IMG/VR virus record: IMGVR_UViG_3300048838_000203
Coordinates: 1-34,684 of that record
Length of the DNA stretch: 34,684 nucleotides
Origin: a virus
Reading direction: 5' to 3' (one strand)
Shown: in pieces, positions 1 to 34,684 of the stretch
How positions within the stretch are numbered: position 1 is the stretch's first letter
Layout of the letters: each line of letters starts with the position of its first letter
Translations under genes and position numbers: made by a program
The notes under the pieces: model-generated
Told to the model about the DNA's origin: nothing
The model's database searches: none
The model's input: the letters and a program-made list of their open reading frames with translations, nothing else

Positions 1-127
1 TTATATCGACGGTCTCCACACGTATGAGGGAGTGATTGATGATATCAAGGCATGGTTGCGGAAGGTGAAGCCTGATGGATGGGTCGGCGGCCATGACTAC
101 GGACATAAGCTATGCCCGGGCGTAAAG
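1..127. repeat. Left copy of 127-bp terminal direct repeat
   Basis: These 127 bases are identical to the last 127 bases of the window. Both copies lie inside one methyltransferase gene that reads in frame through the join. This is what a circular or circularly permuted genome looks like when an assembler leaves a k-mer-sized overlap. It is not a biological long terminal repeat, because it encodes an internal gene fragment and has no flanking structure. The unique circle length is 34,557 bp. Confidence 0.95.
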
Positions 128-214
128 CAGGCAGTTGATGAGCTTCTCGGAGTTCCTGAGAAACGATTTCAGGACACATCATGGGTGATAAAACGTGACA
201 GAATATCCTTATAA
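1..214 (+). CDS. SAM-dependent methyltransferase, C-terminal part (continues from 34202)
   Basis: This is the 3' part of a gene that begins at 34202 and crosses the circular junction. The first base is the third base of a codon, then reading continues YIDGLHTYEGVIDDI, a typical class I methyltransferase segment (Methyltransf_24-like) in which an acidic strand D-x-x-Y-I-D-G is followed by a helix and then KPDGWVGGHDY. The joined protein is about 189 residues. It ends at a TAA at 212-214, overlapping the GTG start of the sialyltransferase-like gene. It belongs to the sugar cassette, so a sugar or glycan is the likely methyl acceptor, but the substrate is not visible in the sequence. Confidence 0.85.
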   Translation, partial: YIDGLHTYEGVIDDIKAWLRKVKPDGWVGGHDYGHKLCPGVKQAVDELLGVPEKRFQDTSWVIKRDRISL

Positions 215-899
215 GCGCCTTATAATGGGTAAGAGGGTGTGCTTTGTAGGGGCATGCCCTAATCTCGTTGGTACAGGTTACGGCAAGGTGATAGACTCCT
301 ATGATACCGTGGTCAGATCAAATAACAGTATTGCTCTGATAGAATCGGAAAAATTTTGTGATGATTACGGTCATCGTTGTCATGTCCTGTACATCAACAG
401 GCAATACTATCGAGAAACTCGGCCGCTACCTATCCTTGAGTACAAAAAGAAGGGTGTGAAGTATTTATGTATGAAAGGTATATCCGGAAGAGATGAACGG
501 AAATGGAGTTTTGATATCAACATCAGAAAGCTGAACAGGACTATATCAGATATAGCAGAGACATTACCTACAGCGACTATGGGATCAATTCTTGCACTCG
601 ATGTATTGAGGTTAAAGCCAAAAGAATTTCACATGTGCGGGATTGATTTCTTTGCCTCCAGAAAAAAGGCGTTCGAGCACGACGTATACAGAGAGTATTT
701 GCCTGGATACCTCACTGACAAGATCAGGGAGCAGGGCAACAGGATCAACGTTGGCAAAATGGCTGACGCTCACGGATTTTATGAGAACGCCGATTTCATG
801 AAGCAACTGTATGATAAATACCCGGCGTTCACGCTTCCGGATTATTTAGAAGAATTGCTCGACAAGATTGTGAATAGGGAGATTGACCAGGGTGATTAA
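195..899 (+). CDS. Sialyltransferase-like (GT29-like) glycosyltransferase
   Basis: The 234-residue product opens with VCFVGACPNLVGTGYG followed by KVIDSYDTVVRSNN. This closely resembles sialylmotif L of GT29 sialyltransferases (VVGNSxNLxGSGYGxxIDxxDxVxRxN). Around residue 130, TATMGSILALDVL followed by a CGIDFF strand resembles sialylmotif S. GT29 enzymes transfer sialic acid from CMP-sialic acid, and CMP-sialate synthetase-like and sialate synthase genes flank it in the same cassette. No signal peptide or membrane segment is seen, so a cytoplasmic protein is expected. GTG at 195 is chosen because GGTGAT lies 4 bases upstream; ATG at 225 is the alternative. The acceptor is unknown. Confidence 0.75.
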   Translation: MTEYPYKRLIMGKRVCFVGACPNLVGTGYGKVIDSYDTVVRSNNSIALIESEKFCDDYGHRCHVLYINRQYYRETRPLPILEYKKKGVKYLCMKGISGRDERKWSFDINIRKLNRTISDIAETLPTATMGSILALDVLRLKPKEFHMCGIDFFASRKKAFEHDVYREYLPGYLTDKIREQGNRINVGKMADAHGFYENADFMKQLYDKYPAFTLPDYLEELLDKIVNREIDQGD

Positions 900-1701
900 G
901 CTCGTCGCCGAAATAGGGATAAACCACAACGGTGATATCGAGATCGCAAAGAAGCTCATTGATATTGCTGCGTTTGCGGGGTTCAATTACGTGAAGTTCC
1001 AGAAACGTACTCCGGAGCTGTGTGTCCCCGATAGCCAGAAAGACGTTATCCGCTCTACTCCATGGGGCGAAATGCGATATATCGATTATAAACATCGAAT
1101 TGAGTTCGGAGGTGTAGAGTATGAAGAGATAGCAGAATACTGTATACAGAAGGGTGTAGGATGGTTTGCGTCCGTATGGGATATCGAAGCAGCGAAGTTC
1201 ATGAGGGAGTTTACCGACATGGTGAAGATCCCTTCCGCAAAGATCACTGATATGGAGTTGATTGCACATTGCAGGAATAATTTTAATCACGTTCAGATAT
1301 CTACAGGAATGAGCACAGAGGATGAGGTTTATTCGGCTGTCAATGAGGCGGGACTTCCGGATGTCATATATCATACAAACAGCAGTTACCCTGCAAAAGT
1401 AAATGAGCTGAACCTTGAATATATAATGCACCTGAAAAGCAGATATGCTACAGAGATCGGTTATTCCGGGCATGAGTGGGGGCTTGCTACAACCTACGCA
1501 GTGGCTCTCCTGGTTGACTGGATAGAAAGGCACGTCACACTTGATCACGATATGTGGGGAAGTGACCAGAAAGCAAGTATTGACCCTGTGGGAATGATAA
1601 AGCTTGTACGCAGTATCAGGGATATTGAGAAGGCAAAAGGTGCGGCGGGGCCCAGGGTATTACATGAGTCAGAAAAAGCAAAGAGGGAGGCGTTGCGGTG
1701 A
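892..1701 (+). CDS. neuB: N-acetylneuraminate (nonulosonate) synthase, catalytic domain only
   Basis: NeuB family enzymes condense phosphoenolpyruvate with N-acetylmannosamine or a related sugar to make sialic acid. Family hallmarks run along the 269 residues: VAEIGINHNGDIEIAKKLI at the start, FNYVKFQKRTPELC, the catalytic-barrel segment MVKIPSAKITDMELI, then STGMSTEDEV, HTNSSYPA, IGYSGHEWG and ERHVTLDHDMWGSDQKASID. The protein ends just after ESEKAKREALR, where normal NeuB continues into a SAF (antifreeze-like) domain of about 60 residues; that domain is missing. GTG at 892 is preferred because AGGGA lies upstream at a workable distance, while TTG at 883 sits almost on it. The gene overlaps both neighbours, so translation is probably coupled. 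Confidence 0.88.
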   Translation: MIKLVAEIGINHNGDIEIAKKLIDIAAFAGFNYVKFQKRTPELCVPDSQKDVIRSTPWGEMRYIDYKHRIEFGGVEYEEIAEYCIQKGVGWFASVWDIEAAKFMREFTDMVKIPSAKITDMELIAHCRNNFNHVQISTGMSTEDEVYSAVNEAGLPDVIYHTNSSYPAKVNELNLEYIMHLKSRYATEIGYSGHEWGLATTYAVALLVDWIERHVTLDHDMWGSDQKASIDPVGMIKLVRSIRDIEKAKGAAGPRVLHESEKAKREALR

Positions 1702-1994
1702 ATATCGGTGTGGATATTGACAACACTCTTTTCAAGTCAGAACTTGTGAACGGTGAGTACAAGATCATTTATGTTAATCATGATCTTATAGAAAAAGTCA
1801 ATGCGGCACATGAAGCAGGGTATGTAATAATAATATGGACCGGGAGACATTGGAACCATCTGAAAATTACAAAGGACCAGCTCGATAAATACGGTGTGAA
1901 ATATGATGGGTTACAAATGGCAAAGCCTCCTATTGATCTTATGGTGGACGATACATCAGTACAGCCTGAAGAGTTTCTGAAGATGAAATTATGA
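1698..1994 (+). CDS. Small HAD-superfamily phosphatase-like protein
   Basis: The 98-residue product carries three HAD hallmarks: motif I as GVDIDNTLF near the N-terminus (D-x-D nucleophile pair), motif II as IIIWTGR in the middle, and a C-terminal KPPIDLMVDD like motif IV with paired aspartates. No cap domain is present, as in the smallest HAD phosphatases. HAD phosphatases remove phosphate from sugar phosphates in sialic acid and KDO pathways, so in this cassette it may act on a nonulosonate 9-phosphate or similar intermediate; that is inference. GTG at 1698 has AGGGAGG a few bases upstream and overlaps the end of neuB by 4 bases. It also overlaps the head closure gene that follows. Confidence 0.75.
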   Translation: MNIGVDIDNTLFKSELVNGEYKIIYVNHDLIEKVNAAHEAGYVIIIWTGRHWNHLKITKDQLDKYGVKYDGLQMAKPPIDLMVDDTSVQPEEFLKMKL

Positions 1995-2323
1995 GACACC
2001 TTTATAACACAACAGTAGAGATACAGCGAAAGGAAAATGTAGGAACAGAATTTCATCCCGTGTGGGACTGGGATATACACCTCACTCCACAGGTGAGAAT
2101 ATCACAGCTTTCTTCGGCAAGAATCGTAAGGGACGAAGGCGGTGTGATTAAGGCAGATCACGAAATGTATCTTGATCCGTGTGACATTAAAATAACTGAT
2201 AGAATTGTCACTACTACTGCGATATATGAGATTTACAGCATCGATGATATTGACGGAATGGGGCATCACTACGAAGTCAAGATGAAAAAACTTGATAACA
2301 GTATGAGCGAGGCCGGAAGTTGA
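1991..2323 (+). CDS. Head-tail adaptor / head closure protein
   Basis: The 110-residue protein starts RHLYNTTVEIQRKE and continues in short beta strands, the pattern of small head closure proteins (SPP1 gp16 / phage head-tail joining type) that cap the connector after packaging. Position supports this: it heads the block head closure, gp10-like, tail completion, tail tube. In ordinary phages it would follow the connector gene directly; here the connector at 31884-32225 is separated from it by the sugar cassette. ATG at 1991 overlaps the stop of the HAD gene. I recognise fold and position rather than a diagnostic motif. Confidence 0.7.
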   Translation: MRHLYNTTVEIQRKENVGTEFHPVWDWDIHLTPQVRISQLSSARIVRDEGGVIKADHEMYLDPCDIKITDRIVTTTAIYEIYSIDDIDGMGHHYEVKMKKLDNSMSEAGS

Positions 2324-2706
2324 TAGATTGGAACTGTGATAAAATAAAGGTACTCATGGAGAAAAAGCAGAAGACGTTTCTCCACAAAGTAGGACAGGCT
2401 ACCGTGAACCAGATGGCAGAGTTTGCTCATGTGAAGACTGGAACATTGAAGAACAGCATGAACTACAGACTGAGTACAGGATCGGCTTCTAACTTCGGGA
2501 CAGAGACAGGGCCAGGGGGGAAGGGCGCCACACCTCCTGAGAGTGCAAAGATGGATAACGCATCAGATAAAGACTATGTGCGGTGCGGTTCTAATCTGGT
2601 ATATGCAGGCCCCCAGGAGAAGCACAATGCCTGGGCCTCAAAGACAAAAGATGAACTCGTAGCCAGTAAAACTATAGTAAGGCTTGCGGAGAACACGTTC
2701 AAATGA
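2320..2706 (+). CDS. HK97 gp10-like neck / tail-joining protein
   Basis: The 128-residue product contains HVKTGTLKNSMNYRL in the first third and YVRCGSNLVYAGPQEKHN towards the end. The VKTGxLRxS and V(G)xxxxYAxxQExG pattern is characteristic of HK97 gp10-like proteins that join head and tail. TTG at 2320 overlaps the previous stop as TTGA and is preceded by a purine-rich stretch; ATG at 2356 is a possible shorter start but would remove an N-terminal helix. It overlaps the next gene by 4 bases, consistent with coupled translation in the head-tail operon. Confidence 0.75.
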   Translation: MIDWNCDKIKVLMEKKQKTFLHKVGQATVNQMAEFAHVKTGTLKNSMNYRLSTGSASNFGTETGPGGKGATPPESAKMDNASDKDYVRCGSNLVYAGPQEKHNAWASKTKDELVASKTIVRLAENTFK

Positions 2707-3086: not shown

Positions 3087-3629
3087 ATGGCTGATTATCA
3101 AACAATTGTAAACAATCTCAATGTGATGCGCGGTAATGCTCTGGTGGAGATCGCGCCCTACATTGACGGAAGCCCGAACTGGGTAAGCGTTGGAGCAATA
3201 ACCGGGCTTGAAACAGAGCTTGATGCACCGATAGCGAGCGAGGAAAACGACAACGCCGATTCCACAGACCGGTTTAACAAACAGGAGCTGAAAATCAAGT
3301 TCACGCAGATAGAACTATTGAACTTGGATGCGTGGGAAATCCTGTACGGAAATCTCATTGATGTTGAGATGGGGTCTGACTACACAAAGATTTTCGGCGG
3401 CGGTTCAGGATCAATTCCGAACTTCATGTGTCGGCTCACTACCACTGAAGACGAGAAGGTATTCAAGCTCACTGCGTACAAGTGCAACTTGACAAAGATG
3501 TTCTCCATGAAGTACGCGAAAGACGACGACGACGACACCCGAATCAAGATACCGGTTGAACTCGTAGGAAAGACCGATCCATACCGTAATAATTACGTGT
3601 GGGAGCTGGAGGGTCCTTTCAATGGCTGA
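3087..3629 (+). CDS. Major tail tube protein
   Basis: The 180-residue product has the N-terminal run NVMRGNALVEIAPYIDGSPN followed by WVSVGAITGLETELDAP and many short beta strands. This fits major tail proteins of long-tailed siphophages, which form hexameric rings stacked to make the tail tube. Its place, after tail completion and immediately before the tail assembly chaperones and tape measure, is the canonical one. A run of five aspartates near residue 150 (KDDDDDTRIKI) makes an acidic surface patch. It overlaps the next gene by 8 bases. Confidence 0.85.
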   Translation: MADYQTIVNNLNVMRGNALVEIAPYIDGSPNWVSVGAITGLETELDAPIASEENDNADSTDRFNKQELKIKFTQIELLNLDAWEILYGNLIDVEMGSDYTKIFGGGSGSIPNFMCRLTTTEDEKVFKLTAYKCNLTKMFSMKYAKDDDDDTRIKIPVELVGKTDPYRNNYVWELEGPFNG

Positions 3630-4037: not shown

Positions 4038-4235
4038 ATGAGCCAGTTTGGGAGTACTCCAGATTACTGGCTCTGGAAAGTGAGTTTCGCACAGTTCTTC
4101 ATCTGGCATGACCGGGCGATAGAGAGAGTTACCGGGAAGCTTATCAACAGGCAGAAAGTAGAGCTGGACGCGAAAGAGATTAAAAAAGGCTGGACGTGGA
4201 CGAAAGAAAAAGGCTGGACGAGAGATAATGGCTGA
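4038..4235 (+). CDS. Tail assembly chaperone, downstream ORF (gpT-like)
   Basis: This 65-residue ORF (GSTPDYWLWKVSFAQFF, then a basic tail with KKGWTWTKEKGW) corresponds to the second tail chaperone segment that normally binds the tape measure. No clear ribosome binding site precedes ATG at 4038, while its frame is open back to 3954 inside the upstream chaperone, in the -1 register. That supports translation as an extension of the upstream protein, although independent initiation cannot be excluded. The near-repeat K-G-W-T-W-T-K-x-K-G-W-T sits at the C-terminus. It overlaps the tape measure start by 8 bases. Confidence 0.65.
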   Translation: MSQFGSTPDYWLWKVSFAQFFIWHDRAIERVTGKLINRQKVELDAKEIKKGWTWTKEKGWTRDNG

Positions 4236-6612
4236 TAGAATCGGTGGCGTATATGTAGAGATTGGCGCAATGATGGACGGTTTCAATCGTGCAATCAATG
4301 AAGCACGTGTGAAATCCGGAAATCTTGATCGTCAGCTCAATGATAACGTAACCAGGACATCTTCTGCATTCTCCGGCATGGGGAAAACCATAGTCGGAGT
4401 GTCCGCACTGATAGGTGCCGCTCTCGGTGTTATGTATGTGAAAATGGCACGACAGGCCATGGACGCAGTAGAGACACAACAGAAGTTCGGCGTTGTGTTC
4501 AGGGATACCCTGGAAGCGGCAAATGCTGCGGTAACCAATCTTGCGGACAACTACGGCCTTGCGACCACAGAAGCGCGTGATATGCTTTCCGCAACAGGAG
4601 ACCTCCTCACGGGTTTTGGCATGACAGGTGAGCAGGCCCTGCAGCTATCTGAGAGAACACAGCAGTTAGCTGTAGACCTTGCATCATTCACTAACTACTC
4701 AGGCGGGGCGAGAGGTGCATCAGAAGCACTCACAAAGGCTATGCTCGGTGAGCGTGAAATGCTGAAATCTCTCGGTATCGTTATTCGAGAAAGCGATATA
4801 AAACAGAGACTCGCGTCAATGGGTATGGCAAATGCTACTGGTGTAGCGAGGATGCAGGCACAGGCACAGGCAACCCTTGCACTGGCGTATGAGCAGTCAA
4901 CAAACGCAATCGGGGACTTCGCACGATCTGCAAACTCTCCGGCGAACGTAATACGCAGGGTACAATCTTCATTACAGAACATATCAGAAGAAATAGGCGA
5001 AACAATGTTGCCGGGTCTTCAGGAGCTTGGTCTGGCTTTTATCGAAGCATCACGTGACGGTGGTGTAATGATACAGGCTGCAAAAGCAATCGGAGACCTA
5101 CTATCAAAAGCCGGTATGTCGATAGCTTATGTTATCCGGATGCTTGACACGATAAACAAAAAGAATGCTCTGCAGGAAAACATGGACAGGGCTGCAACTG
5201 CTACAGGGAATACTCGTGTTCAGATGAACCAACTCGAAGCATCGATGCAGGGCGTGAGAAATACAGGGTTATCGACTGCTACAACCTACAACGCTATGAT
5301 AGCAGACCTTGATAGACTGGCTGCAGGTAGTGGAAGCACGGCACAGGCTGCCAATACGTTATCAAGCACATTGAGAGCACAAAGGGCTGAAATAGAGCGT
5401 TCCGGAGCATCAGCGCAAAGAGCACAGAATGCCGCATCAGGCCAGATAGGACAATACGAAAGGGCATATACTGAGCTTACACGGCTTGGTCAAAGGATAC
5501 GTGGAGTTACGACTAACACAGAAGAACTCGCTGCTCAGCGAGCGAGAGACCGTCAGAGGACACAGGAACAGACTACCGCAACCGGAGACCAAAGCAAGGC
5601 TCTTGCGAAGCTGAAGAAAGACCTTGAATCAGTAATGAACAGCCTTGCTACTTTCGGTATGGGGGAGGGCGAGCAGGCTCAGGCAGACGCGACGAGGAAA
5701 CAGCAGATACTTGATAGAGGACTCGCTGAAAACCTAATTACAAGAGAGCAGTACAATCAAGCAGTTATTCAGCTCGAACGACAGACGGCACAGCAGGTTG
5801 AAGAAATACAGAAAAAATCATTCATGCAGACAACGCAGAATGTACTTGGCACGATTGGTACTGTAGGGAGTTTGGTCTCACAGTTAGGACAGCTTTACTC
5901 GTTATCCGCCAGCAATCAAACGGCAGAGCTTGAAAATCAGCAGACAGAACAAATGGCATTGATAGCAGCAAACTACGATCAGGAGCTTGCTATTATAAAT
6001 AGCTCAATAACCGATAAGACACAGCGAGACGCAGCTCTCAAAGCTCTGGATGAGAAAAGAGCCAGAGAAGAAAAGAAACTGCAGGAGCAGACCGAGAAAG
6101 AGAAGCGGAAAATTGCCAGAGAAGCGGCGAAGAAACAAAAGCAGATTGCAGTATTTGAGACATTAATCAATATCCCTTCAGCTGCTTTCGCGGCTTTCAA
6201 ATCAGCTCAATGGTTACCGTTCCCGGCATCTGCGGTGATTGGTGGTGCTCTGGCAGCAGCTGCTACTGCTCTCGGTTTTGCAAAACTCGCATTGATACAG
6301 CAGACACCACTACCGGCGGCGGCAAAAGGTATTTACGCAGAGTCTCCATATATCGGTGGTGAGGCAGGCCCTGAGCTTGCTTTCCCGCTATCATCAGAGA
6401 GGGGGAGGGCGGCTCTTTCGCTTTTCTCTGAGCAGTTTATCAATAAGCTCGGTGAAGGATCGGCGACAAAGGCACCGGAGGCAACTATCGGAAACAGTGC
6501 CGGTAACATGTTCAGGGTAGTTGTGAATCTTGGCAGTAAAGTTCTTTATGATGACATTACAGAGGCAACGGCGAACGGTGAAATTATGGTGCATGCAAGG
6601 GCTATTGTATAA
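4228..6612 (+). CDS. Tail tape measure protein
   Basis: At 794 residues this is the largest protein here. The N-terminal third is rich in alanine and glutamine helices (residues about 1-250), a hydrophobic segment GKTIVGVSALIGAALGVMYV lies near residue 55, a long coiled-coil region follows, then a strongly charged helix around residues 595-640 and a second hydrophobic segment near 650-690 (PASAVIGGALAAAATALGFA). This is the usual build of tape measures, which set tail length and are released on infection. At roughly 0.15 nm per residue it predicts a tail near 120 nm. It follows the chaperone pair and overlaps the next gene by one base (TAATG). Confidence 0.93.
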   Translation: MADRIGGVYVEIGAMMDGFNRAINEARVKSGNLDRQLNDNVTRTSSAFSGMGKTIVGVSALIGAALGVMYVKMARQAMDAVETQQKFGVVFRDTLEAANAAVTNLADNYGLATTEARDMLSATGDLLTGFGMTGEQALQLSERTQQLAVDLASFTNYSGGARGASEALTKAMLGEREMLKSLGIVIRESDIKQRLASMGMANATGVARMQAQAQATLALAYEQSTNAIGDFARSANSPANVIRRVQSSLQNISEEIGETMLPGLQELGLAFIEASRDGGVMIQAAKAIGDLLSKAGMSIAYVIRMLDTINKKNALQENMDRAATATGNTRVQMNQLEASMQGVRNTGLSTATTYNAMIADLDRLAAGSGSTAQAANTLSSTLRAQRAEIERSGASAQRAQNAASGQIGQYERAYTELTRLGQRIRGVTTNTEELAAQRARDRQRTQEQTTATGDQSKALAKLKKDLESVMNSLATFGMGEGEQAQADATRKQQILDRGLAENLITREQYNQAVIQLERQTAQQVEEIQKKSFMQTTQNVLGTIGTVGSLVSQLGQLYSLSASNQTAELENQQTEQMALIAANYDQELAIINSSITDKTQRDAALKALDEKRAREEKKLQEQTEKEKRKIAREAAKKQKQIAVFETLINIPSAAFAAFKSAQWLPFPASAVIGGALAAAATALGFAKLALIQQTPLPAAAKGIYAESPYIGGEAGPELAFPLSSERGRAALSLFSEQFINKLGEGSATKAPEATIGNSAGNMFRVVVNLGSKVLYDDITEATANGEIMVHARAIV

Positions 6613-15683: not shown

Positions 15684-15930
15684 AGTTAAAGCGTGTTTTA
15701 ATTGTCAGCACAGGCACCCCTGTGCTGTTAAGTACGCATTAAAAGAGTTCGGGAGGATTGCTGGACACGTAACCGGTGATTTGCGTATCACCTCTAAAAT
15801 CGGTGATGTGATCGCTGATAACTGTGTGATGTACGAGAAAATGGAGCACGATATGGAGCACGATGCAGAAAGCTCTATTGAGATGCGGGAGCGGGAAGCC
15901 ATTGAGGACAGACTCGCGGGGGGTATGTGA
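15664..15930 (+). CDS. Small cysteine-containing early protein
   Basis: The 88-residue product starts [20 protein letters not shown], with a CxxC plus HxxC set that could hold a metal, and ends in a very acidic and methionine-rich helix ([20 protein letters not shown]). AAGGAGGA lies directly upstream of ATG. It overlaps both neighbours. No known family is recognised. Confidence 0.65.
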
Positions 15931-16475
15931 TGCATATCGAAATCAAAAACAGATATACTTGCACTATCATTTTTGCCGGCGAATATGAATCCGTTAAAGA
16001 TGCCGTCACAGGCGCTTATCTCGCAGGCGCTAATCTCACAGACGCTGATCTCACAGACGCTGATCTCATAGGCGCTGATCTCAGATACGCTGATCTCAGA
16101 TACGCTGATCTCAGAGACGCTAATCTCAGATACGCTAATCTCAGAGGCGCTAATCTCAGAGACGCTGATCTCGCAGACGCTGATCTCAGAGGCGCTAATC
16201 TCATAGGCGCTGATCTCGCAGACGCTGATCTCAGAGGCGCTATCGGAGCACCATATACAATATTTATATGTGGGTCACGACATGATGTGTGGACTGATGG
16301 TGATATTATCAAGATAGGATGTGAGGTATATAATGTCGATGAGTGGGTAAATCAATATTGCGAGATCGGAAGAGCTAACGGGTATTCTCCCGATGAGATA
16401 TCAGAGTACAAAGCCTATATCGATCTGTGTTCGCAATTTGTGCCGAAAAAAGCAACCGATAGTGAGGTAGCGTGA
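15930..16475 (+). CDS. Pentapeptide-repeat protein
   Basis: The 181-residue protein has a short N-terminal domain ([20 protein letters not shown]), then fifteen repeats of A(D/N)LxxA-type pentapeptides (residues about 29-103) and a C-terminal domain ([20 protein letters not shown], then [12 protein letters not shown]). Such repeats fold into a right-handed square beta-helix; some members mimic DNA and protect gyrase, others have unknown roles. The C-terminal domain is of a type seen in other phage pentapeptide proteins. The start ATG overlaps the preceding stop. Confidence 0.88.
16014..16238 (+). repeat. Fifteen tandem 15-bp repeats within the pentapeptide gene
   Basis: The unit is GCT(G/A)ATCTC followed by six variable bases such as AGAGAC, AGATAC, ATAGGC or GCAGAC. 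The first nine bases are nearly invariant although synonymous codons would be allowed, so the repeats spread by recent slippage or recombination. Repeat number is likely to vary between relatives. Confidence 0.95.
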
Positions 16476-20370: not shown

Positions 20371-20431
20371 CTGAACAGGGTAAGCGACGTGCGATAGCAT
20401 GTGCGAAGCGAACGCCTGACCGTTGTTATAT
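20365..20431 (+). other. attC-like integron site A
   Basis: The arrangement is 7-base box TCATAAC, 6-base spacer, 9-base arm GGGTAAGCG, a central region with GACGTGCG, arm CGCCTGACC (7 of 9 pair with the left arm, counting a G-U), 3-base spacer and box GTTATAT. The order R''-spacer-L''-core-L'-spacer-R' and the asymmetric 6/3 spacers are those of integron attC sites and are shared exactly with site B. The stop codon of the gene at 19810 lies in the left box. Confidence 0.65.
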
Positions 20432-20496
20432 GCTGTGCCGGGCATGACAGAATAAAGGCGGTGGAGGCCACGGATGGCCGGAACCGATGGAGACAG

Positions 20497-21348
20497 ATGA
20501 AGTTAATAAGAGTATTTCCACGAAAAACAAATGCCACTCCGGACGATGAGAATGTCAGATTTTCAGAGCCGGGATTATTTGATGAGGCGGACGAGGTGCG
20601 TGTTTCTGTAACGTGGACGTGGGATAAACAGAGAGGCGAAGAATTGGCCGAGGCGTGGAGAGGGTTGACAAGCAAGGTTTCAATCGGAGGCCCTGCGTAT
20701 GATGATCCGGGCGGGGAGTTTGAGCCGGGGATGTATGTCAAGCATGGATATGTTATGACGAGCCGAGGGTGTCCGAATAAATGCTGGTTCTGTTCTGTAC
20801 CGAAAAGAGAAGGAGGTATTCGTGAACTTAAAATTAGAGAGGGGTTCAATATTCTTGATAGTAATTTACTTGCTTGCAGTCGGGATCATATTGAGAGGGT
20901 GTTCAATATGCTTGATCGACAACATGAAAAAGCACGATTCACGGGTGGACTTGAAGCGGCGAGGATGAAACCGTGGATTGCCGAGCGGTTGAGGGAGTTG
21001 AGGCCGCACGTTGCATATTTTGCATACGATACACCGGATGATTATGAGCCGCTTGTGGATGCCGTTAAGATGTTGAGGGATGCCGGAGCTTTATATGATC
21101 GTGTTTATTCGTGCTATGTTTTAATTGGATATAAAGGTGACACGATTGAGAAAGCAGAACGCAGATTGCAACAGGTATTAAAGCTGGATGTTATGCCGAT
21201 GGCCATGCTATTTAATAAAGCAGAAGGTAAAGATGATCGGAGTCAATGGATTAAATTCCAGAGGGAATATGCTAACCGGATTATTGTTGGTTCTAAATTA
21301 ACAGCCGCCAGGACGGCGGCTCAACAAGAGGCCCGGCATTGCATATAA
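20497..21348 (+). CDS. Radical SAM enzyme, in an integron-like cassette
   Basis: The 283-residue protein has the radical SAM cluster motif CX3CX2C in MTSRGCPNKCWFCSVPKR near residue 95, preceded by VSIGGPAYDDPGGEFEPGMY and followed by LDSNLLACSRDHIERVF and FTGGLEAARMKPWIA, then YVLIGYKGDTIEKAERRL. These enzymes use a 4Fe-4S cluster and SAM to start radical chemistry; the substrate here is unknown. ATG at 20497 has GGAG 4 bases upstream; the longer frame back to 20401 crosses the attC-like site and is rejected. The gene fills the interval between attC-like sites A and B and its stop lies in ATATAAC of site B, as in integron gene cassettes. Confidence 0.82.
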   Translation: MKLIRVFPRKTNATPDDENVRFSEPGLFDEADEVRVSVTWTWDKQRGEELAEAWRGLTSKVSIGGPAYDDPGGEFEPGMYVKHGYVMTSRGCPNKCWFCSVPKREGGIRELKIREGFNILDSNLLACSRDHIERVFNMLDRQHEKARFTGGLEAARMKPWIAERLRELRPHVAYFAYDTPDDYEPLVDAVKMLRDAGALYDRVYSCYVLIGYKGDTIEKAERRLQQVLKLDVMPMAMLFNKAEGKDDRSQWIKFQREYANRIIVGSKLTAARTAAQQEARHCI

Positions 21349-24779: not shown

Positions 24780-25559
24780 ATGAGCGTAATCTATGAACCA
24801 CGCGGGAAGGCCCGCGAATATTCACCGCTTGCATGTAATATTTACATGGGGTGTAATCATGGCTGTAAGTATTGTTATGCACCGAATATCAGATTTCAAA
24901 AAAGGGAAGAATATCTTACGGTAAAACCGAGAAGGAACATTGTGCAGGAGTTCGAGAGGGATTGCAAGAAAAACACCGGTACTGATAAGCAGGTTCTGTT
25001 CTGTTTTATGTCAGACCCTTACAACTCCCTTGAGTCAGAGCTCAGGCTAACAAGAGAATGTCTCAAACTTGCTTTGAAGTATGATATACCTGTAGCAATA
25101 CTTACGAAGAGTAAAACAGTGCTTAATGATATTGACGTAATAAAGCAATTTGGTAGCAAAATACAGGTAGGAATGACTCTTACCATGAATAGCACTGATA
25201 AAAGTATAGAGTGGGAGCCAGAAGCAGCAACGCCAGATGAAAGGATTGAAACTCTCTCAGCTCTTAAAAAAGATGGAGTGAGGACATGGGCTTCTTTTGA
25301 GCCGGTAATATTTCCTGAAGAATCTCTTGCTATTATGGAGAGGTCAATCCCGCATGTTGATATTTACAAAGTTGGGAAGCTTAATAATTTCCAGGGGCTT
25401 GATAAAAATGTTGATTGGGCTGAATTTCTAAGAAAATCCACTGAAATTCTACGGAAAAATGGAAAGCCATTTTACGTTAAAAAGGATTTGAGGGAGGCTG
25501 CTCAATCTATCAAGCTGTATGGAAATGAAGTGTATATGGACGAATTTAACGTAGCGTAA
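24780..25559 (+). CDS. SplB-like radical SAM enzyme
   Basis: The 259-residue protein has the radical SAM motif CX3CX2C in NIYMGCNHGCKYCYAPNIRF (around residues 21-40), then LFCFMSDPYNSLESELRLTR, IPVAILTKSKTVLNDI and VGMTLTMNSTD. This pattern belongs to the COG1533 group that includes spore photoproduct lyase, though members here often have other or unknown roles. It is the first gene behind P5 and has a strong AGGAGGAAG site. Repair of DNA lesions or a modification step before packaging are both possible; the substrate is not visible. Confidence 0.83.
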   Translation: MSVIYEPRGKAREYSPLACNIYMGCNHGCKYCYAPNIRFQKREEYLTVKPRRNIVQEFERDCKKNTGTDKQVLFCFMSDPYNSLESELRLTRECLKLALKYDIPVAILTKSKTVLNDIDVIKQFGSKIQVGMTLTMNSTDKSIEWEPEAATPDERIETLSALKKDGVRTWASFEPVIFPEESLAIMERSIPHVDIYKVGKLNNFQGLDKNVDWAEFLRKSTEILRKNGKPFYVKKDLREAAQSIKLYGNEVYMDEFNVA

Positions 25560-31883: not shown

Positions 31884-32225
31884 ATGGCAATAATAACAAG
31901 AGCAAAAGCAAAGACGTTCCTGCAGATAACTGATACATCGAAGGATGATCTTATAGACGCTCTTATTCCGCAGGTAGAGGCTGATTATCTACTGATCCGG
32001 AATAGGGCTTTTGATGAAGATTCCAACGATGAAATTGAGTATCCGGATAACGCTGAACTTGTCGCTGCCCAGATGATCGGGTTTCTGATATCTGATATCG
32101 CAAGGTCAGGCGGTGCTTTCAAGAGTGAGTCTATTGGTAAGTACAGTTATACTGTAGCTGATATGGTCGCTGGATACCCGACAACAATCACCAGCAGAAT
32201 TGACAAATACGTTGGTAGCAAGTGA
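31884..32225 (+). CDS. Head-tail connector protein (gp6-like)
   Basis: The 113-residue protein starts AIITRAKAKTFLQITDTSKD and continues LIDALIPQVEADYLLIRN and NAELVAAQMIGFLISDIARS, an all-helical pattern typical of gp6/gp15-type connectors that form a ring below portal. There is no good ribosome binding site before ATG at 31884, which follows an AT-rich stretch. Its end overlaps the GTG start of the first sugar cassette gene, so the cassette is translationally joined to the connector. Confidence 0.8.
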   Translation: MAIITRAKAKTFLQITDTSKDDLIDALIPQVEADYLLIRNRAFDEDSNDEIEYPDNAELVAAQMIGFLISDIARSGGAFKSESIGKYSYTVADMVAGYPTTITSRIDKYVGSK

Positions 32226-32866
32226 AAAGAAAGGGAGCGCAAATACGTGGAATGCTGGAAGGACGGGCGGCGTGGCTTCTCGGAGGAGGGACTTCACTTT
32301 CTGGTATTGATTTCACGAAGCTTGACAACGAGTTTACCATAGCGGTCAATCACACAATAGAGCACTACCCGAACGCAGACGCCCTACTGTTCGGTGATAA
32401 AATATTCCTGCATAAAACCAATTTCGATATTAAGAGTTACAAGGGGCTCATTTTCTGCTCAGAGAAATGCACGAAGTCAAAGCCTATAGACGAGATGCTT
32501 GATAACGATAATCTCTTCATCTTCGATGACAGGCGGGATGAGCCGACACTCAATCCGAGAGTAGGACTGTTTCACCCTGGGTCTTCCGGGATTCTGGCGC
32601 TTAATCTCGCTATACAGATGAAGGCGAAGAAAATATATCTGCTCGGGTACGATTACCACTACAGTAACGGCAAAATACATTACTATCCTGACATGGAGCA
32701 TCACCTGAAATACCCTGCTGAAAGACTTCCACGTAAGGCCGCGAAGTTTGTGTATTTCGAGAAGTGGAAGGATAAAATTATCAATCTGAGTCCTACCTCT
32801 GTAATCCAGACTTTCCAAAAACGCGACTGGAGGGAGTATGATATATTACGTAATACCAGCGCGTAA
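32222..32866 (+). CDS. Rossmann-like glycosyltransferase (GT29 / DUF115-like)
   Basis: The 214-residue product has AAWLLGGGTSLSGIDF near the N-terminus, then FTIAVNHTIEHYPNADALLF, and PGSSGILALNLAIQMKAKKI followed by YLLGYDYHY near residue 125. The order, a GGG-x-S loop, an IAVN strand and a GSSGILALxLA motif, resembles sialyltransferase motifs L and S and the related DUF115/MptE fold. It is the first gene of the cassette and a distant partner of the gene at 195. GTG at 32222 overlaps the connector stop; ATG at 32252 is an alternative. The substrate is not visible. Confidence 0.65.
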   Translation: MKRKGAQIRGMLEGRAAWLLGGGTSLSGIDFTKLDNEFTIAVNHTIEHYPNADALLFGDKIFLHKTNFDIKSYKGLIFCSEKCTKSKPIDEMLDNDNLFIFDDRRDEPTLNPRVGLFHPGSSGILALNLAIQMKAKKIYLLGYDYHYSNGKIHYYPDMEHHLKYPAERLPRKAAKFVYFEKWKDKIINLSPTSVIQTFQKRDWREYDILRNTSA

Positions 32867-33509
32867 GGGAAGCAAGGGGCTTCCGGGGAAAAACAGGACA
32901 CTGTTTTTAAAGACTTTTGATATATTCCCGCATGATGTATATAGCAATGTAATAGTTACCACTGACGATGAAGAGATAAAGCGTCAAATTGCCTGCTACC
33001 GGAAAACTCTATCTGCTTTCCGGTCAACCGGGGTAAGCTGTGTTATACACGACAGAAAGCCTGAACACGCAACCGATGAAGCCAGCATGAGGGCGGTACT
33101 CCTGGACATCAGAGAAGAGCACAAAATGAAAGCAGATGATATTATTGTGCTCCTATACCTCACATATCCTGAAAGAACGTATCAGCTCGTAAAAGACACT
33201 TTGGAATATTTCATAGCGATCAACGGGAATAGCCTTTTGTGTGCTATCCCCGCGAAAGACAGCCCGTGTCAGATGGTATATATTGACGGTGCCCCTGTAG
33301 TGGAGAATAACCTGTACCGCAGACAGGATTACCCTGTGGTGTACGTGAGAAGTCACTGCGTAGCGATTATGAGAGCCGGAGAGCTCGATCACCTCTCAGA
33401 GAACCTGTACAACGATGATACTATATATTTCCCGATTGATCCTATTGTTGATGTCGATACCGAGGAGGACTTGAAAGCGTATGAAAACAGCTCTTACAAC
33501 AATGCTTGA
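32838..33509 (+). CDS. neuA: CMP-N-acetylneuraminate synthetase-like (acylneuraminate cytidylyltransferase)
   Basis: The 223-residue protein opens with the nucleotide-binding loop IPARKGSKGLPGKN, the defining motif of CMP-sialate and CMP-KDO synthetases, then VIVTTDDEEI, HATDEASMRAVLLDI, LLYLTYPERT (a variant of the usual QPTSPLR) and VDVDTEEDLKAYE, the C-terminal DIDTxED. It would activate a nonulosonic acid with CTP to make the donor for the sialyltransferase-like proteins. AGGGAG lies just before ATG. It overlaps both neighbours. Confidence 0.88.
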   Translation: MIYYVIPARKGSKGLPGKNRTLFLKTFDIFPHDVYSNVIVTTDDEEIKRQIACYRKTLSAFRSTGVSCVIHDRKPEHATDEASMRAVLLDIREEHKMKADDIIVLLYLTYPERTYQLVKDTLEYFIAINGNSLLCAIPAKDSPCQMVYIDGAPVVENNLYRRQDYPVVYVRSHCVAIMRAGELDHLSENLYNDDTIYFPIDPIVDVDTEEDLKAYENSSYNNA

Positions 33510-34212
33510 TGATAATTTTGTCATCGGATATGTAGCGTTTATCAAGTCCTTTCTTCACTTCAATCATGATTTCTCTGATGATTTCGTGATTATAGATGTG
33601 GGCCTTAGTGAGGAAAGCAAAGAGAAGATTGAAAGCTATTACCAGAATGTAGTGTACAAACAGCCGAACCGGGACAGGTACCGCAGTGTCGATATGTCGA
33701 AGACAGCGGATAAGCTGAAGAACACGTATTACACCCTTGATGTGTTCAGTTACACGGAGTATGACAGGATCGTGTTTATAGACATGGATACAATTGTGCT
33801 CGCTCCTTTGGATGAACTGTTTAATTGTCCAGAACCTTTCGCTGCGGTGAAGGGATACAATGCAAAGCTTGACGAATTGCGGGGTGATATCAATTCTGGT
33901 GTGTTCGTTGTGAATAAACCGCTTATTGGTGAAGAAACATATTCAGATATGATCAGATACGCTTCACGCGGCCATTCGATGCCGGATCAGAAAACAATAA
34001 ACGGCGTTCTTCGTAATAAAATAGCATACTTTAACAAATCGTACAATGTAGAAAAGCGCATGTTGCACACTCGGAAGTATAAGAGAGTGCTGGAAAATAT
34101 TAAAATACTCCACTTCGTAGCCTCCAAACCGTGGGAGGATGTAAAACCGAACGCAGTAGAGGAGAGTTACGGAGAATTTGAAAAGATATGGTGGGAATGG
34201 TATGAAAGATAA
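33481..34212 (+). CDS. GT8-family glycosyltransferase
   Basis: The 243-residue protein has GT8 features: KTALTTMLDDNFVIGYVAFI at the start, YTLDVFSYTEYDRIVFIDMD with the D-x-D metal motif near residue 100 followed by TIVLAPLDEL, FAAVKGYNAKLDELRGDINS with GVFVVNKPL, and a late KILHFVASKPWED typical of glycogenin-like enzymes. It transfers a sugar from a nucleotide sugar with retention. It overlaps neuA by 29 bases and the methyltransferase by 11, so it is an integral part of the cassette. Confidence 0.87.
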   Translation: MKTALTTMLDDNFVIGYVAFIKSFLHFNHDFSDDFVIIDVGLSEESKEKIESYYQNVVYKQPNRDRYRSVDMSKTADKLKNTYYTLDVFSYTEYDRIVFIDMDTIVLAPLDELFNCPEPFAAVKGYNAKLDELRGDINSGVFVVNKPLIGEETYSDMIRYASRGHSMPDQKTINGVLRNKIAYFNKSYNVEKRMLHTRKYKRVLENIKILHFVASKPWEDVKPNAVEESYGEFEKIWWEWYER

Positions 34213-34684
34213 GATTTCAATCAGGAATGCTCCGACAGCGATACCGGGGCTTCAGGACATGATAATGTACATCCAGAAGAAAGGCTGCGTACACTTCTCA
34301 AAGTTCGTAATGGCAGAGATAGGGTCCTATGTCGGAGACTCCACACAAGTGTTCGCCGTTGCGTGTAAAGAGATACACTGCGTTGATCCATGGCAGAACG
34401 GGTATGACGAGAACGACTTTTTAAGTTATAAGTACGACATGAAGATCATAGAAGCGCAATTCGATGAGGTTTGTGAGCGCTTTCACAACGTTATTAAGCA
34501 CAAGATGACTTCCGTGGAAGGTGCTGAAGAGTTCGAGGATGAAAGCCTTGATTTTATTTATATCGACGGTCTCCACACGTATGAGGGAGTGATTGATGAT
34601 ATCAAGGCATGGTTGCGGAAGGTGAAGCCTGATGGATGGGTCGGCGGCCATGACTACGGACATAAGCTATGCCCGGGCGTAAAG
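34202..34684 (+). CDS. SAM-dependent methyltransferase, N-terminal part (continues at the left end)
   Basis: The frame opens at ATG 34202 and is uninterrupted to the window end (161 codons), then continues in frame to 214 across the circular join. Motif I is AEIGSYVGDSTQVFA near residue 43, followed by the acidic strand end HCVDPWQNG; DFIYIDGLHTYEGVI lies at the join. This is a class I Rossmann methyltransferase, Methyltransf_24-like, of about 189 residues. In a sugar cassette it may O-methylate a glycan. GTGGGA precedes ATG and the start overlaps the GT8 stop. Confidence 0.85.
   Translation, partial: MKDKISIRNAPTAIPGLQDMIMYIQKKGCVHFSKFVMAEIGSYVGDSTQVFAVACKEIHCVDPWQNGYDENDFLSYKYDMKIIEAQFDEVCERFHNVIKHKMTSVEGAEEFEDESLDFIYIDGLHTYEGVIDDIKAWLRKVKPDGWVGGHDYGHKLCPGVK
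34558..34684. repeat. Right copy of 127-bp terminal direct repeat
   Basis: Exact copy of bases 1-127. See the left copy: it marks closure of a circular assembly, and only one copy belongs to the genome. Confidence 0.95.

Follow-up and report, generated by a model that had tools for sequence, protein, structure and literature searches.

Organization of the locus

The analysis of IMG/VR virus record IMGVR_UViG_3300048838_000203 (34,684 base pairs (bp); the whole of this stretch is referred to below as the window) revealed a cassette of seven open reading frames (ORFs), predicted to encode the synthesis and transfer of a nonulosonic (sialic) acid, between the head-tail connector and head closure genes of a tailed phage (Table 1). 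The two ends of the record carry an exact direct repeat of 127 bp, bases 1-127 being identical to 34558-34684, and removal of the terminal duplicate leaves an assembled circle of 34,557 bp. The cassette runs through the join of this circle. From the connector, whose end overlaps the start of gene 1, to the gp10-like gene, the nine successive junctions overlap by 4, 29, 29, 35, 20, 17, 4, 4 and 4 nucleotides (nt). An earlier note, made on this DNA from its letters alone, had listed the seven genes in this order and with such overlaps, and all of them are present. Its coordinates, 32222-34684, are correct for the part before the join and stop there, whereas the cassette extends beyond the join to 1994, which the text of that note itself said.

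The methyltransferase ORF (gene 4) stays open through the join, and contig L060 contains an undivided homologue with which residues 12-192 of the joined 197-residue protein align at 67% identity. The join is therefore not chimeric, and the circle is genuine. A phage species with the same cassette was moreover assembled from three metagenomes (L008, L010 and L098; 99.4-100% identical over 4-7 kb), so that the assembly artefact which the earlier note had considered is excluded by both the alignment and the repeat assemblies.

Table 1. Cassette genes and flanking genes in the window.
Feature	Coordinates	Strand	Basis
Head-tail connector (SPP1 gp15 / gp6-like), left flank	31884..32225	+	PF05135 3e-4; phrog_1161 head-tail adaptor 7e-7; kept in all six cassette species
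Gene 1, PF01973 (DUF115/MptE-like) Maf/CstII-like transferase, GTG start	32222..32866	+	phrog_4603 'alpha-2,3-sialyltransferase' 5e-22; PF01973; fold
Gene 2, NeuA, CMP-nonulosonate synthetase	32838..33509	+	Family profile against PDB; PseF model 2.8e-8; PF02348 in 35/37 members
Gene 3, GT8 glycosyltransferase	33481..34212	+	PF01501 1.6e-19; DxD motif in IVFIDMDTIVL
Gene 4, S-adenosylmethionine (SAM) methyltransferase, first part to window end	34178..34684	+	PF13578 4e-19 on joined 197-aa protein; uncut homologues
Gene 4, methyltransferase, last part	1..214	+	127-bp terminal repeat; joined ORF
Gene 5, GT29-fold sialyltransferase	195..899	+	PF00777 1.8e-4; profile against PDB ST3Gal1 1.8e-20; model
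Gene 6, NeuB, nonulosonate (probably 9-phosphate) synthase without SAF domain	883..1701	+	PF03102 1.3e-56; TIGR03569 8.7e-55; catalytic residues; virus clade
Gene 7, small HAD phosphatase (DxDNT, K76, VDD), proposed 9-phosphatase	1698..1994	+	TIGR01689 EcbF-BcbF 1.4e-6; homologue in 72/92 loci
Head closure protein (SPP1 gp16-like), right flank	1991..2323	+	phrog_1059 connector 1e-5; adjoins HAD in relatives too
HK97 gp10 / Neck1-like protein, context	2320..2706	+	PF04883 0.012; phrog_5
Probable tail tube protein, candidate acceptor	3087..3629	+	Position before tape measure gene; conserved in five species; no family match

Along the genome, the cassette is preceded by the genes for TerL, the portal, the minor head protein, the scaffold, the major head protein (SPP1 gp13-type) and the connector, in this order, and is followed by the head closure, gp10-like, small, probable tail tube and tape measure (4228-6612) genes. 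In the annotated Bacillus phage 000TH010, which has a related major head protein, the head-tail adaptor gene lies 1 bp from the head closure gene, and we therefore take it that these neck genes normally adjoin. They are also adjacent in two distant relatives, L101 (10-nt overlap) and L259 (21 nt apart), in agreement with what the earlier note had said of them. No promoters or terminators separating the cassette from the operon were found inside it above chance. Base composition gave no sign of a recent acquisition, as the GC content and codon fit of the cassette resemble those of its neighbours.

Enzymes encoded by the cassette

All seven ORFs and their motifs are intact, and each product could be assigned to a family by sequence, profile or fold. 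The NeuB encoded in the window matches PF03102 with 192 bits (curated cut-off 22.1), and the profile of its family matches solved sialic and pseudaminic acid synthases in the PDB. Alignment with the meningococcal enzyme NmNeuB showed that the equivalents of E25, K53, Q55, K129, S132, S154, Y186, S213, H215, H236 and D247 are retained. Those of E25, K53, K129, S132, S154, H215, H236 and D247, which we take to be residues of the phosphoenolpyruvate (PEP) and metal sites, are invariant across a set of 38 phage NeuB proteins. The SA-x-x-T motif of the phage proteins is also found in cellular relatives.

In a tree of 83 NeuB sequences, whose cellular sampling covered the best 80 cellular matches, 39 of the 42 viral sequences grouped together. 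Two metagenome-bin contigs fell in this group as well, and it was separated from the other cellular sequences with 98-100% support in the Shimodaira-Hasegawa-like approximate likelihood ratio test (SH-aLRT). The remaining three viral sequences, second paralogues on long branches, are of unsure placement. Within the tree the NeuBs of the neck cassettes form one supported set together with those of L003, L004 and L036. We also observed a viral-type NeuB with a small HAD on a contig of a Flavobacteriales metagenome-assembled genome (MAG; L176:8364-9512); this contig is probably phage DNA that was assigned to the MAG in binning.

The NeuA family profile matched cytidine monophosphate-N-acetylneuraminic acid (CMP-Neu5Ac) synthetases in the PDB at 9.5e-41 to 1.7e-33, and synthetases for 3-deoxy-D-manno-octulosonic acid (Kdo) only at about 7e-12. 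The profile match spans positions 3-209, and the nucleotide-binding loop IPARxGSKG...KN is present. A Kdo pathway was considered for this enzyme and rejected, the CMP-Neu5Ac synthetases giving the better fit by about 29 orders of magnitude.

PF01973 is matched by 17 of 18 members of the gene 1 family. Foldseek analysis of the AlphaFold model of gene 1 (predicted local distance difference test (pLDDT) score 90.8) returned CstII first (4e-5) and the Maf glycosyltransferase 5mu5 second (6e-4). In Maf, the central domain, PF01973, is known to be similar to CstII (PMC11339370), and Maf enzymes are known to act in the cytoplasm, where they transfer nonulosonate to Ser/Thr of flagellin (PMC11339370, PMC7591256). 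The model thus suggests that gene 1 may act as Maf does, but we do not class it as Maf. The family of gene 5 possesses a segment resembling sialylmotif L (VGxCPNxxGxxxGxxIDSYDxVVRxN), a motif-S-like segment and an invariant H193; the top 31 PDB fold matches of its AlphaFold model (pLDDT 92.9) were all sialyltransferases. For gene 7, the family profile matched the capsule biosynthesis protein 9iqw in the PDB (5e-24). Overall, the family calls of the earlier note (NeuB, NeuA, GT29, DUF115/PF01973, GT8, methyltransferase and HAD) all held in profile searches, PDB profile searches and the two AlphaFold models, and NeuA and NeuB both stay inside the nonulosonate families.

Conservation at the neck junction

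L002, L008, L060 and L068 carry the same cassette at this junction, and its left half is seen in the partial contig L097; with the window this makes six phage species. It is present in every relative seen with this connector clade. Identity between species is about 37-67% for the cassette proteins and about 25-63% for neck and tail proteins, and GC content is alike. This similar divergence and GC content indicate that the cassette and neck genes evolved together for a long time. Since more distant relatives have adjacent neck genes, we interpret the cassette as having been gained long ago in a single branch of phages.

A second lineage and wider distribution

The gene order, which the earlier note proposed to look for in other phages, was found not only in these six species but also in a second lineage. 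In L261, L262, L263 and L268 (and, partial or altered, in L003 and L004) the order is DUF115, NeuA, GT8, methyltransferase, variable genes, GT29, NeuB and HAD, directly upstream of short genes and then of the tape measure gene where the contig reaches that far. The roles of the flanking genes (terminator- and tube-like) are mostly positional, family matches having been obtained only for the tape measure protein and for the terminator-like and virion proteins of L261. The variable middle contains methyltransferase-like genes, a 350-residue protein without known family and a second NeuB-cupin protein (490 residues).

The last of these, a NeuB-like protein of about 490 residues, is encoded at L261:7916-9379, L263:7472-8950 and L268:7871-9340; that of L263, the one tested, matched PF03102 (5e-42) and, at the C-terminus, Cupin_2 (2e-9). 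The protein without known family, of 340-360 residues, recurs in the variable middle of cassettes (L262:4563-5633, L002:6297-7319 and similar genes) and is possibly glycosidase-like.

A natural fusion of NeuA to GT29 is encoded by L004:2128-3465 (445 residues), and its GT29 domain scores 30.8 bits against the Pfam cut-off of 23. This fusion is strong evidence that activation and transfer act in sequence.

This NeuB is encoded in at least 460 viral contigs. Among about 92 loci, mostly drawn in through NeuB, NeuA was found in 82, HAD in 72, homologues of gene 1 in 54, the methyltransferase in 42, GT29-like proteins in 42 and GT8 in 21; the counts for gene 1 and GT29 overlap partly, with 16 shared proteins, as the folds are related. 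Among GenBank phages, only three records gave a NeuB match, namely those of an uncultured phage of 484 kb and of a marine Kyanoviridae virus and a Moritella record; a NeuA match was found in one record and a GT29 protein match in none. Virus-encoded GT29 entries were already known from herpesvirus, poxvirus, mimivirus and uncultured phage. In a third group of phages, with larger genomes (L065, L067, L071, L073, L075, L082, L085 and L086), DUF115 or GT29, NeuA and GT8 come before NeuB and HAD, and the surrounding genes are shared. A 484-kb huge phage encodes NeuB, NeuA and HAD together with four GT29-like proteins within a single region, L005 (LR756508.1:307763-338578).

Proposed pathway and acceptor

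Judging from the sequences, the cassette very probably makes and transfers a CMP-nonulosonate. Its best explanation, which we adopt with modest confidence, is a dedicated phage pathway producing and transferring nonulosonic acid in the late phase. The enzyme families and the late-operon position support the earlier note in its proposal of a synthesis and transfer route expressed late. In the scheme that we envisage, NeuB would join PEP to a hexose phosphate of the host, most likely mannose-6-phosphate to give the 9-phosphate of 3-deoxy-D-glycero-D-galacto-nonulosonic acid (Kdn-9-P), or alternatively N-acetylmannosamine-6-phosphate (ManNAc-6-P). The 9-phosphate would be taken off by the small HAD, and the CMP-sugar would be formed by NeuA with CTP. 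Gene 1 could then act in the cytoplasm and put the sugar on Ser/Thr residues of a protein, which would most probably be one of the virion components encoded in the same operon, and the glycan might be extended or capped by the GT8 and GT29-fold enzymes and methylated by the methyltransferase. What we infer in this scheme is the substrate, the action of the phosphatase, the sequence of transfers and the virion acceptor.

Several observations weigh against this scheme. Three of the window proteins, taken alone, score below the Pfam cut-offs: gene 1 with 18.9 bits for PF01973 (cut-off 34.6), NeuA with 18.2 bits for PF02348 (E-value 0.0024; cut-off 22.6) and, slightly, the GT29 protein with 21.5 bits (cut-off 23). 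The assignment of NeuA leans on the family profile, and those of gene 1 and GT29 on family profile and fold. Gene 1 (214 residues) is a single domain and has neither the N-terminal Rossmann-like nor the C-terminal helical domain of Maf. The window NeuB ends at 272 residues, before the C-terminal SAF domain, and carries no such domain; K120 and S167 replace E134 and N184 of the canonical enzyme, which makes the acceptor sugar uncertain. The small HAD is of the EcbF/BcbF type, unlike the KdsC type of cellular relatives, and could serve another sugar phosphate. Finally, GT8 and GT29 enzymes are usually sugar-to-sugar transferases, which is compatible with envelope glycans too.

By analogy with Maf, the acceptor is on balance likely to be a virion protein. 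The earlier note had named virion proteins or the host envelope; the former is favoured, as gene 1 resembles the catalytic domain of Maf, and the latter appears less likely. If the nonulosonate were instead placed on a wall polymer, capsule or lipopolysaccharide of the host, it could mask receptors, keep other phages out or prevent progeny from adhering to debris. Such a role would suit the preference of GT8 and GT29 for sugars. The nearest cellular NeuBs include those of Streptomyces, where teichulosonic acid is a Kdn polymer (PMC11481543), and in many large phages NeuA and NeuB lie among nucleotide-sugar, epimerase and glycosyltransferase genes resembling surface-polysaccharide clusters. Against this, profile searches of the seven cassette proteins found neither a priming transferase for a lipid carrier nor a flippase, a polymerase or a membrane anchor. 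The overlapping genes lie within a late neck or tail operon in two lineages, gene 1 resembles a protein transferase, and the window contains no unassigned ORF of at least 250 residues that could be an integrase, which also disfavours lysogenic conversion. For these reasons we prefer a virion acceptor and consider modification of the envelope rather unlikely. It is possible, if not quite probable, that several tailed-phage lineages share an old phage-specific nonulosonate pathway with Maf-like attachment to their own virion proteins in assembly, giving sialic-acid-coated particles independently of any host pathway.

Nature of the sugar

E134 and N184 of meningococcal NeuB presumably sit at the acceptor sugar, and their loss in the phage enzyme therefore fits a different acceptor. 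Of the best 80 cellular NeuB loci, about 50 contained a KdsC-like HAD, which in most of them lay no more than 250 bp from NeuB. It adjoins NeuB in Chlorobi, Bacteroidota and Ignavibacteria, and in Chloroflexi and Streptomyces it is located on a neighbouring ORF that also carries NeuA. Some Streptomyces NeuB loci (10 loci) contain a GT29 gene as well. The Streptomyces wall contains a Kdn polymer, teichulosonic acid (PMC11481543, PMC7831098), and the route from mannose-6-phosphate through Kdn-9-P is established in Bacteroides thetaiotaomicron and Prymnesium (PMC6200933). Because the SAF-less NeuB subfamily is coupled to a KdsC-type phosphatase and occurs in Streptomyces with its Kdn wall, we favour a Kdn-like product that would be made as a 9-phosphate from mannose-6-phosphate, with ManNAc-6-P as the alternative substrate; on the sequence evidence, a 9-phosphate rather than a free-sugar route is probable.

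The earlier note had taken N-acetylmannosamine (ManNAc) or an equivalent, supplied by the host, as the precursor. ManNAc is probably not the precursor, in view of the coupling to KdsC-type phosphatases in cells. The formation of ordinary Neu5Ac from free host ManNAc would be compatible with either acceptor, and the NeuB and NeuA profiles do match Neu5Ac enzymes. However, profile searches found no enzyme yielding ManNAc or ManNAc-6-P (NeuC, NanE; epimerase) among the seven cassette proteins, and the NeuB lacks both the SAF domain and the E134/N184 equivalents. Free ManNAc is also not known as a common bacterial metabolite. We therefore regard the Neu5Ac route as quite unlikely and retain the Kdn-like product.

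In cellular genomes, a KdsC-like HAD, or an ORF combining NeuA and such a HAD, regularly comes before the SAF-less NeuB gene (e.g., L181:9295-9813, and similarly in L178-L247); this arrangement is likely a Kdn-type locus.

A role of the sugar in hypermodification of phage DNA or of a nucleotide could be suggested by the diverse glycans with which phages glycosylate DNA (Pyle 2024, as cited in PMC12619734) and by the match of the methyltransferase to phrog_2675, named DNA methyltransferase. Pfam, however, places this protein in Methyltransf_24 and in no DNA methylase family; the cassette lies within the late structural operon, away from replication genes, and the GT29, GT42 and Maf folds work on sugars or proteins, all of which makes modification of DNA very improbable. 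That the cassette, which spans the join of the record, is an assembly error or a set of functionless passenger genes is hardly credible given the near-identical independent assemblies, the gene order kept in six deeply diverged species and the intact ORFs and motifs.

Relation to known systems

The closest parallels are with Maf flagellin glycosyltransferases and their CMP-pseudaminic (Pse) and CMP-legionaminic acid (Leg) pathways, and with FlmG of Caulobacter: there too a CMP-nonulosonate made by NeuB and NeuA homologues is placed, in the cytoplasm, on Ser/Thr of a self-assembling protein, in Maf systems by a PF01973/CstII-like transferase, as gene 1 is. In contrast, the system described here is encoded by a phage, has a single-domain gene 1 and an extra GT29-fold transferase, GT8 and methyltransferase, and the window cassette is without Pse- or Leg-specific dehydratase or aminotransferase genes. 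Mycobacteriophages, according to Freeman 2023 as cited in PMC12619734, carry phage-installed glycans on capsid and tail tube, and the role proposed here likewise involves phage-added glycans on structural proteins. As far as that citation goes, the difference is that the window phage also encodes synthesis and activation of the nine-carbon sugar, its system being known from genes alone.

The Streptomyces Kdn/teichulosonic acid systems contain the nearest cellular NeuBs, with NeuA, KdsC-like HAD and GT29 nearby, and the Kdn-9-P route of B. thetaiotaomicron and Prymnesium follows the same logic of synthase, HAD phosphatase and CMP-synthetase. However, the phage NeuB forms a separate clade, the phage HAD is the smaller EcbF/BcbF-like and not the KdsC-like type, and the genes are located in a neck operon. 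Large marine and huge phages possess homologous NeuB, NeuA and HAD, with NeuB in the same virus clade. Their genes lie in large variable glycan clusters in genomes of up to about 480 kb, whereas the window has a compact seven-gene set fixed in a 34.6-kb siphophage.

In the open-access literature searched, we found no account of a nonulosonate cassette between the neck genes of a phage or of a phage NeuB/NeuA module; the earlier note likewise knew of no standard description of such a module between neck genes. Phage virion glycosylation and nonulosonate on flagella are already known. A compact cassette for synthesis, activation and transfer among particle genes would connect the two. If the proposed role is correct, phages build and wear a sialic-acid-type sugar from their own genes, and tailed phage particles would bear negatively charged self-made glycans affecting adsorption, aggregation and recognition. 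The scheme also offers a testable function for the virus-specific NeuB clade, and biochemistry would gain useful tools in the fusion of NeuA to GT29 and in the compact enzymes of Maf-like and GT29-like type.

Other features of the window

The best named matches of the SPP1-like major head protein (36-39%) are from Terrisporobacter, Streptococcus, Vibrio and Listeria phages and are not decisive for the host. The gene at 15927-16475 encodes a pentapeptide-repeat protein by a 15-bp tandem repeat (15961-16287). This repeat was considered as a glycan acceptor and rejected, its product being the pentapeptide repeat A[DN]Lxx with no Ser/Thr-rich tract. The 34.6-kb genome also encodes two radical-SAM proteins (24780-25559 and 20401-21348), one of them directly upstream of the terminase genes.

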